A stretch of 13,102 nucleotides of DNA from an uncultured Altererythrobacter sp. (GTDB taxonomy: Bacteria; Pseudomonadota; Alphaproteobacteria; Sphingomonadales; Sphingomonadaceae), in assembly GCA_946886565.1 (NCBI GenBank), contig CAMPIX010000039.1, forward strand, positions 1 through 13,102, in the 5' to 3' direction. Below are positions 4,928 to 13,102 of the stretch, piece by piece (position 1 is the first letter of the stretch; each line of letters opens with the position of its first letter). The notes beneath the pieces are model-generated. The model had not been told where the DNA came from and ran no database searches. It was given only the letters and a program-made list of their open reading frames with translations. A program made the translations under genes and the position numbers.

Positions 4928-5584
4928 ATGGCATCAGGGGGCGAACTTGCCGAACGGCTCATGTCGGTCCTCGACTGCGAGGCCGCCGACGCCGTGCGTC
5001 TTGCAGATGCGTTTCGCGAGCGGCGCCTGCCGCACGCGGCGGTGCTGGCCGGCCCTGCACAGACGGTCGCTTCGTGCTGGTTCGTGGTCGAGGGAAGCCT
5101 GAGCCTTTCGCTGTTCGGCGAGGGCGGGCAGACGGCGCAAGTCGCGACGTTCGGGCCGGGCGAGCTCGCCGGGGCTTTTCCCGAACCGCGCGAGCAGGCG
5201 GGCGAGCTGTGCGCACAGGGCCCGACCGAGCTGATCGAAGTGGAGACCGCGCGCCTGCTCGATCTCGTCGCGAGCGAGCATGCCGTGGGGCGGGGAATGA
5301 CGTTGCTGCTCGCGCGGCAGCACGCGTTGCTGGTCGACCGGTTGGCGGGACGGATGATGCTCTCCGCAACGGGACGGGTTTACGCCGAGCTTCTCCGATT
5401 GGCGGATGGCGCGGCGACGATCGCCCCGCTGCCGGTGGTCACTGCGCTCGCGCTGCGGGCGCACACCGCGCGCGAAACGGCCTCGCGCGCGCTTGCGGCC
5501 GCCGAACGGCGCGGGTTGATCGAGCGCGACGGCAGCGTGCTGCGGATCGTCTCGCCCGACCGGCTGCGCGCGCTCGCGACCTGA
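4928..5584 (+). CDS. Crp/Fnr family transcriptional regulator
   Basis: A 218-aa protein with a cyclic-nucleotide-binding-like beta-roll (about 20-115; WFVVEGSLSLSLFGEGGQ and ATFGPGELAGAF visible), a connecting dimerisation helix (about 118-147) and a C-terminal Crp-type helix-turn-helix. The recognition helix probably lies in RAHTARETASRALAAAERRG (177-196), followed by the wing LIERDGSVLRIV. The phosphate-binding motif of cAMP-binding CAP (FGExxLL...RxA) is not preserved and there is no Fnr-type N-terminal cysteine cluster, so it probably senses something other than cAMP or oxygen through [4Fe-4S]. The ATG at 4928 is the first plausible start; GGGGGCG lies about 10 nt upstream. It is 89 bp behind the flavin reductase and may or may not be co-transcribed. 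Its targets are unknown; its 3' end faces the TPR/SLOG gene with only 7 bp between stops. Confidence 0.87.
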   Translation: MASGGELAERLMSVLDCEAADAVRLADAFRERRLPHAAVLAGPAQTVASCWFVVEGSLSLSLFGEGGQTAQVATFGPGELAGAFPEPREQAGELCAQGPTELIEVETARLLDLVASEHAVGRGMTLLLARQHALLVDRLAGRMMLSATGRVYAELLRLADGAATIAPLPVVTALALRAHTARETASRALAAAERRGLIERDGSVLRIVSPDRLRALAT

Positions 5585-5591
5585 GATCGTA

Positions 5592-6722
5592 TCAGGGCAG
5601 ATAGATGCGGTAGAGGTCGCTCGTGCCGAGCGCGTGCCCCACCGCTCCGGCAAGCTCGGCATCGAGTTCGGGCTCGGCAAGCCGGGCGAGCGCCAGCGCG
5701 TCGACACTCGCCCAGAGGCCCGGGACACCGCCTGCCAACGCGGCGGCCGCGGCCATCGCGTCGCTTGCCGGTTCGGCCGCCTGGACATCGAGACCGAATT
5801 GCGCCTCGGGCCGATAGCGTGCGGCGGCCATCGCTCGCGACATGTTGTCGAACCGCTCGACGCCGGGCGCCGGGGTCGCGGCCGCGAGCAGGACCTGGAC
5901 GGTGGTGGCCCCGCCGGGCGGAAAGCCTGCGAAGTCGAGCGAGCGCTCGATCTCGACCGTCGTGGCCGCGTTGCCCGTTGCGGCCCAGGCCTCCCATGCC
6001 TTGCCGATCTCGGGCTCGCCGCCGTGCGGTGCGATCGCACGCAGCCCGACTGCAGCGGTTTCGAGATCTTTCGCCCGGCCGATCGCAAGCCCCTTCGCGA
6101 TCTGCGCGGCGAGGCCGCTGGTGACGGCATCGATGGCAGCTCCGCGGGCGGCGATGTGCACCGAGGCGGCGCGCGCCAGGCAAGCATCGAAGCGCGGTCC
6201 CCAGTCTCGCGAAACCGAGGTCACCGACGCGGCGCGGAAAGCCCCCGCTTCGACCGGTAGTATGAGATTGAGTTCGGTCCCGCGCTCGAGCAGCGCTTCG
6301 GCGACGAGGATGTCGGTCCCCGCGGCCAGCGCGCCATAGGCCTCGCACGGGGCGATCTCCGCCACCGCCCGCGCGATGCGCGCCTGCGCTGCGCCGTCGT
6401 CGGGCGCAAGCGCCATCACCCCGCCGTAGGCGAGCACCGGAGGGGGGGTAAAGGGGGCCAGCCATGCGGCGGATTCGCCGATCTCGCCAAGCAGGAGCCG
6501 GAACTGCCGCAGCGCGATCGCGTGATCCTCCCACGCGCGGGGGGCGAGCGATACCGCGCGCTCCAGATTTGCCCGCGCCGCGCCGGGATTGCCGGCGACC
6601 AGCTCGGCCTCCGCTCGCGTGGCGGCGAGCCAGTAAGCCGTGTCCGGAGCATGATCGCCGCTCGCCAGCAGAGTGAGCACTTCGCCGGCGATTTCCGCGC
6701 CCCGTCCGCGCTCGCCCCCCAT
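5592..6722 (-). CDS. TPR protein with SLOG-like nucleotide-binding domain
   Basis: 376 aa from the first canonical ATG (6722), but coding sequence clearly continues upstream (separate entry). Residues 1-90 are TPR-like helices (LAATRAEAELVAGNPGAAR, ERAVSLAPRAWEDHA, LRQFRLLLGE). About 95-250 is a Rossmann-like region: VLAYGGVMAL, then YGALAAGTDILVAEALLERG (129-148), LNLILPV (151-157), WGPRFDACLARAASVHI (174-190) and GLAIGRAKDLETAAVGLRAI (211-230). This pattern of small-residue loop, 'AAGTDIL..EALLERG' and a beta strand is what I know from SLOG/LOG-like domains in TPR signalling proteins. The last ~100 residues resemble the end of class III cyclase domains without the catalytic core. No signal peptide or membrane segment is present, so it is cytoplasmic. 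It is the last gene of the TIR operon, 72 bp or more behind the 193-aa gene. The SLOG call is by recognition and needs a profile search. Confidence 0.75.
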   Translation of the reverse strand: MGGERGRGAEIAGEVLTLLASGDHAPDTAYWLAATRAEAELVAGNPGAARANLERAVSLAPRAWEDHAIALRQFRLLLGEIGESAAWLAPFTPPPVLAYGGVMALAPDDGAAQARIARAVAEIAPCEAYGALAAGTDILVAEALLERGTELNLILPVEAGAFRAASVTSVSRDWGPRFDACLARAASVHIAARGAAIDAVTSGLAAQIAKGLAIGRAKDLETAAVGLRAIAPHGGEPEIGKAWEAWAATGNAATTVEIERSLDFAGFPPGGATTVQVLLAAATPAPGVERFDNMSRAMAAARYRPEAQFGLDVQAAEPASDAMAAAAALAGGVPGLWASVDALALARLAEPELDAELAGAVGHALGTSDLYRIYLP

Positions 6723-6938
6723 GGCGCTGAGCGATGCGGCGTTGATCAGCGCATAGGTCGAAGCGCGCTCCCCAGTGCGTGCTCCGGCGAGGTAGCGCTC
6801 GGCCGCGTGCGCGAACAGCGTCGCACGCTCGGCGCCCCGGCCGGTTCGCGCGGCGCGATATTTGAGCGCGCGGCCTTCACGGATATGCTCGTCGCCGCTG
6901 GTAGCGATCGCCTGTCTCCTGCTCCGAGGCGCTGTGTC
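6723..6938 (-). other. In-frame N-terminal coding extension of the TPR/SLOG gene without canonical start codon
   Basis: The frame of the TPR/SLOG gene stays open upstream of ATG 6722 to a TAG at 6941-6939. Its translation reads like protein of the same family, for example REGRALKYRAARTGRGAERA and AHAAERYLAG...STYALINAASLSAMGG, which forms a TPR-type helix running into the annotated start. No ATG, GTG or TTG occurs in this stretch. The best initiation context is AGGAG (6920-6916), 7 nt before an ATC codon at 6908-6906; initiation there would give a 438-aa protein. Either ATC is a rare start codon, or an ATG was lost by mutation or sequencing error. Confidence 0.6.
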
Positions 6939-7013
6939 CTACGCTGCCGTCGGGATGACAAGGAAAGAAGGGATCGGCGGGTGTGGTCCACCGTGCCAGA
7001 ATCTCGCCTCGAC

Positions 7014-7595
7014 CTACTGCTTTCCGGCCTCGTCGTACACCGGGTCGCCCGGTTCGGGCATCATCCAGCCCGGAAACGGGAACTGCGAGTCGACGAGGTT
7101 GAAGCCGAACGGCAGGCGCACCACCGGGCATTTGACGCTGCGCAGATGCCTTGCGATATCCCAGCTCGCGAGCGACGCCGTGTCGAATTCGAACGAGGCC
7201 TTGTACCTGCACGCGCTAATCTCGAAGTTTTCCAGCAAGCCGTCCAGGTCGGGGCCCATTTTGCTGCCGACGATGAACGGATCGTCCGCAAACGTCACCG
7301 TGTAGGAATTGCCGTGGTCGACGTAGTCGGCGGCGATCGTGAACATGAACTTCGCGCGGCCTTTCTGGTCGCGGACGTCGAGGTCCAGCTTCCGGTCGCC
7401 CGGTTTGTCGGGAGGAGGGGGTTCTCCGGCGGCGGATGGCAGGAGGGGTTCGAGATCGTCGAACCCGATGTCGCCATCGTATCGGATATGCGACGTATAT
7501 CCGAGCCAGAGTTTGGGCATGTGCCAGTCCTGCCTCCCTGTCTGCGCCGTCATTCCGATGTCGAGCCTGTGCGTGGCGATCACGGCATTGCTCAT
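7014..7595 (-). CDS. Hypothetical protein in TIR operon (193 aa)
   Basis: I do not recognise this family. It is a soluble, rather acidic protein with no signal peptide or membrane helix. The N-terminal part (IATHRLDIGMT...KLWLGYTSHIRYD) leads to a Pro-rich stretch (about 53-66), then a region of probable beta-strands (DRKLDLDVRD, AKFMFTIAADYVDHGNSYTV, RYKASFEFDTASLASWDIAR), ending FPFPGWMMPEPGDPVYDEAGKQ. The start was decided by the ribosome-binding site: GGGAGG sits 6 nt before ATG 7595 but touches ATG 7601 with no spacer. ATG 7595 also overlaps the TGA of the TIR gene as ATGA, a typical coupling. The close coupling to the TIR gene suggests that both products act together; it could be a partner, substrate or effector. 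Nothing more can be said from sequence. Confidence 0.82.
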   Translation of the reverse strand: MSNAVIATHRLDIGMTAQTGRQDWHMPKLWLGYTSHIRYDGDIGFDDLEPLLPSAAGEPPPPDKPGDRKLDLDVRDQKGRAKFMFTIAADYVDHGNSYTVTFADDPFIVGSKMGPDLDGLLENFEISACRYKASFEFDTASLASWDIARHLRSVKCPVVRLPFGFNLVDSQFPFPGWMMPEPGDPVYDEAGKQ

Positions 7596-9232
7596 CGGCA
7601 TCCTCCCACGGTAAAGAGCGTCGCGATACGTGCGCGATAGGTTTTCCAGTCGGCGTTCGCCGGGTCGCGTTCGGCGAGCGTGTCGCTGAGCTCGAGCGCG
7701 CGCGCCAAGTAGCCGTCGGCTGCGCTGCAGCGCCCCTCGCGGCGCAGCAGCTCGGCATGCCGGACATAGACCTGCATCTGCTGTTCGCGGTGATGCATGT
7801 TGTCCGGCTCGGCTGCGATCAGCTCGTCGATCAGCGCGAGGTAGCGGTCCGCGGCGGCGGAAGCGGCGTTTTCGTCGCCCGCACGCCAGTGCGCGTCGGC
7901 CAACCACATCAGGTGGAAGACGAGATCGTAGACCGCGGTACGGTCGTCTTCGGCGCGGTCGATCAGCGCTTCGTTGTGCGCCACTGCGCGTTCGAGATGC
8001 GGCAGCGCTTCGGCGACCGCGCCGCCCGCCTGCATGATGGTCGAGCCGACGTTCGCTTCGGTATAGGCGGCCTGCCGCAACCACTCAGGGCGGGTTGCTC
8101 CCCAGTCCTCGATCCGCCGCAGCAGCGCGAGTGCCTCGCGATATTCGCCCAGTGCGTTGGGCTGGTCCCCCTGCGCCACCGAAAGCAGACCGAGCCGGTT
8201 CACGCTTGTCGCGTGGTCGAGCACGAAGCGGGGATTTTTGGGCGCGTCGGTCAGCCGCGCGGCGGTTGCGCGGTTGGCTGCCTCGAAATAGCGCCGCGCC
8301 TCGCCGAACTCGCCTTTCGCCGCGTGATCCGAGCCCATGACCTGCATGACTTCGGAGCAGTTGCGGTTGCTCTCGCCTGCACCCGATACGAGCGCCTGCC
8401 TTTGGCAGTATTCGAGCACCTTGGGGTAGAATTCCATCGCCACGTCGAGCCGCCCGAGCGCGAGCAACTGCTGGCGAAAATCACGCACGAGATAGCGGTT
8501 GAGATCCTCGGTGTTGCGCGCCTGTGCCTCGGCCCGTTGCTGTGCGGCGATCGCGTCGCGGCGCGAATCGAGGGCGAAAGCGGTCATCGCCAGCAGGACT
8601 AGCGCGAGCGCTGCGCTCGCCACCGTGACCGCCGTCACGCGCCGCAGCCGGCGTTGCGCATCGCGCTGGATCAGCGCGTCGAGCGGTACGCCGACGACAC
8701 CGGCGACGATCTTGAGGAAGGCGAGCTTCGGCCCGTCGCCCTCGGCGCGAAAGTCCGCCGCGAGCGGCTCGATCCCACCGTCGGTCAGCGCGGCGGGAAA
8801 TGCGGTCGCGGGCTCGCCCTCGAACAGCGCGGCGAGAATCGGCCTTTCCGGATGCAGTTCGCGAAACAACTCGATCTCGCGTGCGACCCAATGCGAGCGG
8901 GGCGTTGCCGGCGTGCACACGACCACCAGCGCGCGCGACGCGGCAAGCGCTTCGCGCACCGCGCGCGACAGGTCGTCACTGGCGGGAAGGTCCTCGCGGT
9001 CGCGGAACACCGGGCCCGCACGATCGCCCCATGTTGCAACCTCGTCATGCGTCTCGGTCATGCGTCGCGGAAGCCGGTAGCCCTCGAGCCGCGTCTGGAG
9101 GGTGCGCGCGTGGCGCGCGTCGGCGTGCGCGTAGCTGACGAACGCGCGGAAGCGGTCGGGGCCGCCGCTTGCGCCATCCCGCCGATCCTGCGATCGGCTT
9201 CCCCCTTGTTGCACGCTGTTCCCCCGAACCAT
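7592..9232 (-). CDS. Membrane-anchored TIR domain protein with TPR repeats
   Basis: A 546-aa protein. Residues 27-190 form a TIR-like domain: FRAFVSYAHADARHARTLQT (28-47), GPVFRDREDLPASDDLSRAV (73-92), ALVVVCTPATPRSHWVAREI (101-120). Glu119 in HWVAREIE matches the position of the catalytic glutamate of NAD-cleaving TIR domains, as in SARM1. One hydrophobic helix (about 199-221, VTVASAALALVLLAMTAFAL) follows an Arg-rich stretch (RRLRRV), consistent with an N-terminus in the cytoplasm by the positive-inside rule. A Gln/Ala/Arg-rich coil follows, and then TPR-like repeats (about 260-545; GEFGEARRYFEAANRATAARL, GDQPNALGEYREALALLRRI, GAVAEALPHLERAVAHNEAL), predicted on the periplasmic side. ATG 9232 is preferred; GTG 9214 is possible, and ATG 9307 lies within the palindromic operator. 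It is the first gene of the operon with the 193-aa and SLOG proteins. The TIR call is strong; NADase activity is inferred. Confidence 0.88.
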   Translation of the reverse strand: MVRGNSVQQGGSRSQDRRDGASGGPDRFRAFVSYAHADARHARTLQTRLEGYRLPRRMTETHDEVATWGDRAGPVFRDREDLPASDDLSRAVREALAASRALVVVCTPATPRSHWVAREIELFRELHPERPILAALFEGEPATAFPAALTDGGIEPLAADFRAEGDGPKLAFLKIVAGVVGVPLDALIQRDAQRRLRRVTAVTVASAALALVLLAMTAFALDSRRDAIAAQQRAEAQARNTEDLNRYLVRDFRQQLLALGRLDVAMEFYPKVLEYCQRQALVSGAGESNRNCSEVMQVMGSDHAAKGEFGEARRYFEAANRATAARLTDAPKNPRFVLDHATSVNRLGLLSVAQGDQPNALGEYREALALLRRIEDWGATRPEWLRQAAYTEANVGSTIMQAGGAVAEALPHLERAVAHNEALIDRAEDDRTAVYDLVFHLMWLADAHWRAGDENAASAAADRYLALIDELIAAEPDNMHHREQQMQVYVRHAELLRREGRCSAADGYLARALELSDTLAERDPANADWKTYRARIATLFTVGGCR

Positions 9233-11249: not shown

Positions 11250-12292
11250 GCGCCCGCGAACGACTGAACGCCGCCGCCGCCGAGCGTATCCTGATCAAAG
11301 ACGGGCCCTATGGCACCGCGATCCAGCGCGCGAAGCTCTCTGCCGAGGACTACGCCGGGGCCACCGGCCTGTCGCACGACCAGAAGGGCAACAACGACCT
11401 CGTCAACCTGACCCAGCCCCAGGTCATCCGCGACATCTGCGACAGCTACATCGCGGCGGGCGCGCACGTGCTCGCAACCAACACCTTCAACGCCAACCGT
11501 ATCAGCCAGGCGGATTACGGCGCCGAGGGGCTGGTGCACGAGATCAACGTCTCGGCCTCGCGCGTCATCCGCGAGGCGGTCGATGCGGCAAGCGCGAAGG
11601 ACGGTGTGCCGCGCTTCGTCGCGGGCGCAATGGGGCCGACCAACAAGACCCTGTCGCTGTCGCCCGACGTCGAGGACCCGGGCTTTCGCGAAGTGACCTT
11701 CGACGAGGTCAAACAGGTTTACCGCGAGCAGGCGACTGCGCTGATCGAGGGCGGAAGCGACTTCATCCTCGTCGAGACGGTGTTCGACACCTTGAACTGC
11801 AAGGCCGCGATCATGGCGGTGAAGGAGCTCGAGCGCGAGATGGGGCGGGAACTGCCGCTGATGCTCTCGCTCACGCTCACCGACCTCTCCGGACGCAACC
11901 TCTCGGGCCATACCGTCGAGGCGTTCTGGTACGCGGTGCGCCACGCGAAGCCGGTGACCATCGGCCTCAACTGCAGCTTCGGCGCCGACCAGCTGCGTCC
12001 GCACGTGCAACTGCTCTCCGGAATCGCCGACACGCTGCTGATGGCCTATCCCAACGCCGGTTTGCCCAACGAACTGGGCGAATACGACGAGGAGCCCGAG
12101 ACCACCGCCGCGCTGGTCAAGGCCTGGGCGGAGAACGGGCGCGCCAACATTCTCGGCGGCTGCTGCGGCTCGACCCCCGAACACATCGCCGCGATCGCGC
12201 AGGCGGTGGAGGGGATCGCGCCGCGCACGATGCCCGCACGCGACACCAAGATGCGCCTCGCCGGGCTCGAACCGTTCTCGATCGCAGCTTAG
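11246..12292 (+). CDS. metH: Methionine synthase, homocysteine S-methyltransferase part (split MetH, N-terminal half)
   Basis: 348 aa corresponding to module 1 of cobalamin-dependent methionine synthase, a zinc enzyme that transfers the methyl group from methylcobalamin to homocysteine. Seen: [11 protein letters not shown] (17-27, the usual DGAMGTxIQ variant), [14 protein letters not shown] (48-61), [10 protein letters not shown] (77-86), [20 protein letters not shown] (126-145), [12 protein letters not shown] (177-188), and the three zinc cysteines Cys243 in GLNCSFG and Cys306/Cys307 in [11 protein letters not shown]. It ends [13 protein letters not shown], which in full-length MetH is the linker just before the pterin-binding module, so the split falls exactly at the domain boundary. 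Split MetH is known in alphaproteobacteria. It probably acts in complex with the product of the next gene. Confidence 0.95.
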
Positions 12293-12294
12293 TT

Positions 12295-12413
12295 CCCTCT
12301 CCCCTTAAGGGGAGAGGGTTAGGGAGAGGGGAATGTCTCTCTGTTTCAGATACTTCAGGCCGGCGGAGACGGAATCCCCCACTCCCCGGCCCTCTCCCCT
12401 GAAGGGGAGAGGG
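12295..12413. repeat. 119-bp intergenic element with 40-bp inverted ends (REP/MITE-like)
   Basis: This fills nearly all of the 128-bp gap between the two metH halves. The left arm 12295-12334 and the right arm 12374-12413 are inverted copies of each other, with 34 of 40 positions matching by my reading, around a 39-bp centre. Each arm starts with its own palindrome: 12295-12318 is a perfect 24-bp palindrome, and 12390-12413 has 11-bp arms (CCCTCTCCCCT / AGGGGAGAGGG) around GA. The G-run pattern AGGGGAGAGGG...GGGAG.GGGG is the kind of short dispersed repeat common in sphingomonad and related genomes. No ORF or transposase is present. One GANTC site (CcrM target) lies at 12372-12376. Whether it is mobile cannot be told from one copy. 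Confidence 0.8.
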
Positions 12414-12415
12414 AG
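12390..12415 (+). promoter_or_regulatory. Hairpin overlapping the ribosome-binding site of the second metH half
   Basis: The stem CCCTCTCCCCT (12390-12400) / AGGGGAGAGGG (12403-12413) would form in mRNA with a minimal loop. The likely Shine-Dalgarno GGGAG (12411-12415), 5 nt before ATG 12421, shares its first three G residues with the right arm. Left-arm copies upstream (12295-12305) could pair with the same right arm, giving alternative folds. The repeat thus supplies and may partly mask the RBS. The structure is deduced by eye; the regulatory effect is inference. Confidence 0.5.
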
Positions 12416-12420
12416 ATAGA

Positions 12421-13102
12421 ATGACCGACCAACCTTCCTCCTCCCGCTTCGTCAATATCGGCGAGCGCACCAACGTCACCGGATCGGCGGCGTTCAAGAA
12501 GCTCGTCATGGCGGGAGACTATCCCGCCGCGGTCGAGGTCGCGCGCCAGCAGGTGGAGAACGGCGCGCAGGTGATCGACGTCAACATGGACGAGGGGCTG
12601 CTCGACGCGGTCGAGGCCATGACCACCTTCCTCAAGCTGATCGCCGCCGAGCCCGACATCGCGCGGGTACCGGTGATGATCGACAGCTCCAAGTGGGAGG
12701 TGATCGAGGCCGGGCTGAAGTGCGTCAGCGGCAAGCCGATCGTCAATTCGATTTCGATGAAGGAAGGCGAGGCTGAATTCCTCGACCACGCGCGCAAGTG
12801 CATGGACTACGGCGCCGCCGCGGTCGTCATGGCGTTCGACGAGACCGGGCAGGCCGACACCAAGGAGCGCAAGGTCGAAATCTGCACGCGTGCCTACGAG
12901 CTTCTCACCGCGATCGGCTTCCCGCCCGAAGACATCATCTTCGACGCCAACATATTCGCGGTGGCGACGGGAATCGAGGAGCATGACCGTTACGGCCTCG
13001 ACTTCATCGAGGCGGTGGAGGAAATCAAGGCGCGCTGCCCCCACGCACACACCAGCGGCGGCCTCTCCAACCTCAGCTTCAGCTTCCGCGGCAACGAGAC
13101 CG
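12421..13102 (+). CDS. metH: Methionine synthase, pterin-binding and B12 part (split MetH, C-terminal half), 3' truncated by window
   Basis: The first 227 residues are visible; the frame is open at the window end. It starts [20 protein letters not shown], the pterin-binding module of MetH, which transfers the methyl group of 5-methyl-THF to cob(I)alamin. Seen: GERTNVTGS (14-22), [19 protein letters not shown] (46-64), [18 protein letters not shown] (83-100), [14 protein letters not shown] (104-117), [12 protein letters not shown] (134-145), [15 protein letters not shown] (174-188) and [15 protein letters not shown] (212-226). The cap, B12-binding and SAM-activation modules must lie downstream, so the complete gene should be about 850-900 codons. 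It is in a different reading frame from the first half and separated by the 119-bp repeat element. ATG 12421 is the only start consistent with the conserved FVNIGERTN beginning. Confidence 0.95.

Follow-up and report, generated by a model that had tools for sequence, protein, structure and literature searches.

Bacterial units that combine a TIR domain with a SLOG domain are known from Thoeris, which pairs a ThsB-type TIR protein with ThsA, an effector of SIR2-SLOG architecture. TPR-S proteins (PF20308) were reportedly predicted by Burroughs and Aravind in 2020 to sense NAD-derived signals, and Pfam holds a further family, pNTSase1 (PF20301), under the name 'predicted novel nucleotide synthetase'. 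The DP-EP family (PF08985, DUF1888) includes SO1698 of Shewanella oneidensis, and PMC11655445 describes a Shewanella member as a self-cleaving endopeptidase that has been put to use as a tool. Literature searches for PF20301, PF20308, PF08985, DUF1888 and pNTSase1 gave in full text only this use of the Shewanella protein; such searches leave most subscription journals uncovered, and we claim nothing as unpublished. Here, we analyze a locus on a 13,102-nucleotide stretch of DNA from an uncultured Altererythrobacter sp. (the window; contig CAMPIX010000039.1, assembly GCA_946886565.1), in which a membrane TIR protein, a small middle protein and a TPR-SLOG protein lie beside a gene for a CRP/FNR-type regulator.

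The locus is one copy, probably damaged, of a four-part unit that recurs in Sphingomonadales and Caulobacterales. With a probability of roughly 45%, we read this unit as follows: a TIR enzyme anchored in the membrane, its TPR half facing outward; a middle protein with a DP-EP-like beta-sandwich and a conserved tail; a TPR-SLOG-cyclase-like protein in the cytosol; and a gene of the CRP/FNR type that converges on gene 3. In this reading an input switch drives TIR signaling. The initial annotation had described a three-gene minus-strand operon in which the stop of the TIR gene overlaps the 193-residue open reading frame (ORF) in an ATGA; the overlap and the gene order stand, and the unit also includes the convergent gene, which had been missed. 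In the following list, sub-coordinates of gene 1 were computed from its translation, and domains of gene 3 were placed through a gap-free match to P0006, a 74% identical relative (P numbers denote proteins).

7592..9232, minus strand: gene 1, the TIR-transmembrane-TPR protein P0001, 546 residues
about 9142-8810, minus strand: TIR domain of gene 1
8878-8876, minus strand: codon of Glu119 of gene 1
about 8638-8570, minus strand: membrane helix of gene 1
about 8554-7595, minus strand: TPR half of gene 1
7014..7595, minus strand: gene 2, the middle protein, 193 residues as it stands
6942..7013, minus strand: conserved HGGxHPP tail at the C-terminal end of gene 2, placed by relatives and severed by an in-frame TAG at 7014-7016
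5592..6893, minus strand: body of gene 3
about 6893-6447, minus strand: TPR region of gene 3
about 6446-5946, minus strand: SLOG domain of gene 3
about 5906-5598, minus strand: cyclase-like domain of gene 3
6894..6991, minus strand: 5' part of gene 3 as in P0007, P0009 and P0010, split over two frames (by eye)
4928..5584, plus strand: gene 4, a CRP/FNR-type regulator convergent with gene 3, with 7 bases between the two stop codons
9340-10323, plus strand: upstream of the unit, a gene for an ArsR-type helix-turn-helix and methyltransferase protein

To follow the unit in other genomes we scanned genome contigs with an alignment of gene 3 and kept the best 80 of 150 relatives, which by their titles come from Sphingomonadales, Caulobacterales or less closely named bacteria. 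The TIR/middle/SLOG order, whose conservation the initial annotation had proposed to look for, does recur in other genomes. The helix and TPR half of gene 1 (the transmembrane-TPR, or TM-TPR, scaffold) are found in 73 of the 80 loci; other genes lie upstream of gene 3 in L044, L055, L057 and L062, and contig ends cut L002, L008 and L019. In the former four, gene 3 stands beside a CRP-type gene with neither a TIR nor a scaffold gene. Middle ORFs, obtained from 63 of the 80 loci and clustered together with P0003-P0005, formed clusters of 52, 10, 2, 1 and 1. Hidden Markov models (HMMs) built from proteins of these first 80 loci, a search that recovers its own members, place the middle gene in an Asp-Pro (pNTSase1) class in 60 loci and in the window's own HGG class in 8, with 12 loci giving no match. 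Among these 12, a middle ORF can be made out by eye in L030 and L060; L047 is fragmentary, L001 carries a short ORF and L008 is cut; L044, L055, L057 and L062 have no scaffold either. In L051, L054 and L077 the order differs, with the TIR gene downstream from gene 3, and the ORF behind it in L051, the only one of the three printed, ends in CDPIIVDRG. The short ORF of L001 (Pacificimonas aurantium, 5830-5922) has 30 codons and fills the middle-gene space between the TIR-TPR gene and gene 3; a purine-rich stretch precedes it, and it contains VPDTGNGGG, which resembles the tail that L033 and L037 have (IDPDTGNMGG), a single case. Another arrangement is seen at L131:2679-4052, where tandem Asp-Pro-class segments are followed by gene 3.

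Because the 80 loci had been picked by similarity, we also used an evenly drawn sample of 246 genomes from the order of G001 (Pacificimonas), 53 of which carry gene 3. From 55 gene-3 matches 51 stretches were used, leaving out three SLOG-only matches and the second piece of one place. The scaffold is present in 36 of the 51, and 33 of these 36 have a middle gene by HMMs likewise built from the first 80 loci, the others being L121 (the same place as L001), L150 (a DP tail by eye) and L178. Sought on their own, middle genes of the HGG class were found in 8 of the 246 genomes and PF20301 in 12, and the 16 middle-gene loci examined (L081-L096, four of them repeats) have scaffold and gene 3 in every case and a TIR domain in 15.

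The TIR domain of gene 1, called previously from visible motifs, scores 41.1 bits against PF13676 (TIR_2), above the cut-off, and 31.8 bits against PF08937 (ThsB_TIR; cut-off 21.2) in a Pfam scan. Glu119 ends the window's SHWVARE, which has the SxWVxxE form of TIR NADases, and is a glutamate in every one of 70 aligned proteins (the window's own and 69 from the loci); we take it to be the catalytic residue, as in SARM1 and bacterial TIRs. All 70 proteins have a hydrophobic helix after the TIR domain, in agreement with the single membrane anchor described before, and in 52 lysine and arginine are richer on the TIR side of that helix. In the TPR half, a pair of cysteine columns is filled jointly in 53 of the 70, empty jointly in 17 and half-filled in none, counts that come from related and not independent sequences; such pairing is as expected for a disulphide in an oxidizing compartment. 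The window's own protein is without the pair. Helix, charge bias and cysteine pairing together indicate that the TPR half probably faces outward, where the initial annotation had put it, and the TIR domain should face the cytosol. Sequence searches against solved structures gave no match for genes 1 and 3.

The middle protein had been called novel. It has no match in Pfam, NCBIfam or PADLOC at E 1, but it is no orphan: it appears as a divergent counterpart of pNTSase1 and DP-EP-like proteins. Most of its counterparts match pNTSase1, and in an alignment of 29 members of the 52-member cluster (A3) 22 match PF20301 at E 0.1 or better. The invariant part of this class is a C-terminal Asp-Pro tail. 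The window's HGG class has HGGxHPP where DP-EP has its Asp-Pro cleavage site; DP pairs lie within the last 45 residues in 8 of 17 HGG-class proteins and are not conserved. The structural model of P0005, an HGG-class protein 51% identical to the window's, fits SO1698 best, which suggests a DP-EP fold for this class. A nucleotidyltransferase is absent among the listed fold matches of P0005, which excludes nothing, and a BFVD search gave no match at E 0.001. Several HGG-class proteins (L085, L087, L088, L090) have a His-rich stretch ahead of the tail that could bind metal.

The Pfam name invites another explanation, in which the middle protein is the source of a nucleotide signal, the gene-3 protein its sensor and the TIR protein an NAD-depleting effector in conflict or abortive infection. 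The PF20301 matches and the TPR-S relatives of gene 3 would suit such a scheme, which we nevertheless hold to be unlikely: the name PF20301 is itself a prediction, the HGG-class model matches SO1698, what pNTSase1 keeps invariant is the Asp-Pro tail, and DP-EP genes, whose Shewanella member is self-cleaving according to PMC11655445, adjoin the same scaffold.

This last connection comes from another genome group. PF08985 was found in 5 of 299 genomes from the G001 phylum and in 18 of 197 genomes from the G531 order. The 19 DP-EP proteins (18 places, two in tandem) all end in a tail of the type SPDPQVINKPPM, in which the Asp is followed by 7 to 15 residues, and an HMM of the TM-TPR half built from TIR proteins detects the scaffold beside 19 of 19 DP-EP genes. 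It does so at E 7e-40 or better in 18 short loci; the short locus L098 gives only 1.4e-10, and the same place fetched as L117 gives 9.5e-42. In the five DP-EP loci obtained in full, the scaffold protein consists of a Trans_reg_C (winged-helix) domain, nSTAND1, a helix and TPRs. These loci have features of their own: a GGDEF-like protein (by eye, from the C-terminal sequence only) adjoins the DP-EP gene in either orientation in L116, L118, L119 and L120 and lies one gene beyond it in L117 (by eye). At L117:7812-8733 tandem DP-EP genes follow one winged-helix/nSTAND1/TPR gene, the second with an apparent signal peptide (by eye), and the DP-EP of L098 appears to have a signal peptide that follows a long start (by eye).

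Comparing the profiles of the two middle classes gave nothing at first, and signals came with longer alignments. With hhalign, DP-EP against pNTSase1 scores 20.5 (highest of 100 column shuffles, 14.1) and HGG against pNTSase1 26.1 (highest, 15.1). With the tails removed, DP-EP against pNTSase1 scores 17.2 over 21 columns versus a maximum of 15.7, and reversed alignments score 9.3-11.7. A large protein search that used 24 members of the pNTSase1 class yielded three proteins and no bridge to DP-EP.

A number of observations weigh against a DP-EP-like switch. On the profile side, DP-EP against HGG scores 16.8, near noise (reached by 2 of 100 shuffles); unrelated pairs score up to 15.0; the HGG/pNTSase1 score drops to 16.8 when query and template are swapped; hhalign itself assigns the family links probabilities of at best 15%; and the DP-EP HMM reaches middle proteins only at E 0.001 and worse. 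Foldseek alone rates P0005 against SO1698 only at E 7.5e-3, the fold evidence is confined to the HGG class, and sequence profiles of both middle classes found no credible relative among solved structures (one search returned 0, the other a best E of 0.15, which we take as chance). The window's HGG class lacks the conserved tail Asp-Pro, and none of 10 HGG-class proteins matches any Pfam family at E 0.1, neither PF08985 nor PF20301. By a hydrophobicity threshold, an export signal is present in 1 of 54 Asp-Pro-class proteins (an alignment that omits L030 and L060 and includes the pair L038/L065), in none of 17 HGG-class proteins and in none of 19 DP-EPs, which is at odds with contact between these proteins and an outward TPR half. 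Among the five DP-EP-linked scaffolds examined the cysteine pair is missing from all, and the helix of one (L116, 1.43) falls below the threshold of 1.6 used for the TIR proteins. In 14 of the 51 evenly drawn stretches gene 3 is accompanied by neither TIR nor scaffold (6 with and 8 without a CRP-type gene; L148 lies at a contig start), which indicates that it also has a life of its own, and its C-terminal domain aligns with only about 100 residues of a cyclase. The activities of all parts are predicted ones.

The case for a link to DP-EP is made by four lines jointly (the fold, the tail, the shared partner and a weak similarity of profiles), none of them conclusive singly. We tentatively suggest, at somewhat less than even odds, that pNTSase1 and the HGG class are not synthetases but DP-EP relatives, and that with the TM-TPR scaffold they form a general switch for membrane effectors whose heads can be exchanged (a TIR head in Sphingomonadales and Caulobacterales, a winged-helix/STAND head at DP-EP loci), working via the C-terminal tail and possibly a peptide freed by Asp-Pro self-cleavage.

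For the third protein, a SLOG domain had been proposed from sequence, and the predicted fold of P0006 agrees. In this model TPR and SLOG are joined by a third, cyclase-like domain with features of the class III cyclase fold, from which, being so short, the catalytic metal-binding aspartates would be expected to be missing. The window's ORF matches no Pfam family at E 1. Homologues of gene 3 include proteins annotated as TPR-S, and the PF20308 profile itself matches neither the window's ORF nor P0006; a homologue, P0025, reaches 41.8 bits (cut-off 27.6), and P0019 stays below at 25.7. The combination that had drawn attention to this locus, TIR, SLOG and TPRs without SIR2, exists as one recurring operon.

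This combination raises the question of a Thoeris-like defence, in which the TIR protein would make cyclic ADP-ribose and the SLOG protein would be a ThsA-like effector. The ThsB_TIR score and the SLOG fold fit the idea, and we consider it very improbable given that TPR and cyclase-like domains take the place of SIR2 in the SLOG protein, that the TIR protein is membrane-bound with TPRs and that the neighborhood is not shared. Membership in Thoeris proper was rejected on the absence of SIR2 from a Pfam scan of the three proteins at E 1, and a ThsA-type effector on the architecture of the P0006 model, TPR-SLOG-cyclase-like and not SIR2-SLOG or a like fusion. As to defence in general, PADLOC gave for the three proteins a single partial match (SAVED-TIR profile, TIR residues 72-132, E 3.7e-8) and 0 of 18 for gene-3 relatives; viral contigs scanned with a gene-3 alignment (A2) held no relative, and phage records no match for P0001. 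Flanking genes are not shared among loci, which offers nothing for the proposed proximity to defence islands (PADLOC covered the unit's proteins, not its neighbors). Plasmid records gave one match for P0006, on a 1.8-Mb Novosphingobium replicon, and whole-window megablast hit six plasmid records, the five listed matches lying in the flanks (42-1306, 11366-13102), outside the unit. Of the proposed 'nucleotide signaling or defence', signaling is still the natural reading and defence is left unsupported.

A frequent companion of gene 3 is the CRP-type gene, found within 700 bases of it in 72 of 78 loci (68 convergent, 4 co-directional; L043 and L058, where the sequence behind gene 3 is too short, are not counted) and in 39 of the 51 evenly drawn stretches. 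Its product in the window scores 32.7 bits for HTH_Crp_2 (cut-off 27). It could point to envelope or stress signaling in place of defence, with an outward TPR half sensing the envelope, mild TIR activity and transcriptional output through the regulator. The finding that the scaffold elsewhere bears the head of a transcription factor (Trans_reg_C) would agree with this, as would the lack of viral and phage relatives and of constant outside neighbors, none of which recurs in more than 7 of 80 loci (simple ORF picker, ORFs of at least 180 residues). Set against it are the patchy spread of gene 3, the lack of a known regulon and a cNMP_binding domain at 23.5 bits, under its cut-off of 27.5; we rate this explanation as doubtful, though worth keeping in mind. 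The earlier suggestion that an envelope signal drives TIR activity meets a difficulty in middle proteins almost without export signals.

The window's own copy looks broken in sequence. P0004 (99% identical to the middle protein) and P0005 extend beyond the TAG at 7014-7016 into the conserved tail, 24 codons of which remain in frame behind it in the window. The start at 6722, implied by the earlier placement of the third protein at 5592-6722, is hardly right: P0006-P0010 have 58 to 80 extra N-terminal residues, and matching peptide continues in frame up to about 6893-6935. There is no in-frame ATG, GTG or TTG between the upstream stop and 6722, rarer start codons still being possible, and the 5' end shows a frame break relative to P0007, P0009 and P0010 (by eye). 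Two lesions within about 100 bases (6890-7016, minus strand) suggest decay or a local sequence error; intact relatives exist.

How might the intact unit work as a DP-EP-like switch? The middle protein and the TPR half stay together when the head changes, and so would likely constitute the input switch. The conserved tail of the middle protein is its likely business end, to be read or released, perhaps through self-cleavage. An activated TIR domain would then break NAD+ into an ADP-ribose-type signal, which the SLOG protein would bind to alter the cell's response, with the CRP-type protein as its possible output partner. In the other genome group, the head driven by this switch would be winged-helix/STAND in place of TIR. 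If this is true, a Pfam family named for a nucleotide synthetase needs re-reading, the self-cleaving Shewanella protein acquires both a partner and a function, and bacterial membrane TIR proteins get an activation step that can be tested. What is new here is the middle protein, as a putative distant relative of a self-cutting family that suggests a new switching route for such enzymes.

Set beside known systems, the unit is a new variant of the TIR/TPR-S type. With Thoeris it shares a ThsB-type TIR and a SLOG domain, and it differs in having no SIR2, a membrane-anchored TIR with TPRs, an extra middle protein and a CRP-type gene. Compared with TPR-S, the window's group is shorter at the N-terminus and carries SLOG and cyclase-like domains after the TPRs. 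The window's middle class occupies the same slot between TIR-TM-TPR and SLOG proteins as pNTSase1 in TIR operons and resembles it in profile, and it differs in lacking a Pfam match and in its tail. From DP-EP it is set apart by HGGxHPP in place of Asp-Pro and by the lack of a profile match, and the partner protein, whose head at DP-EP loci is winged-helix/nSTAND1, has a TIR head in the window.

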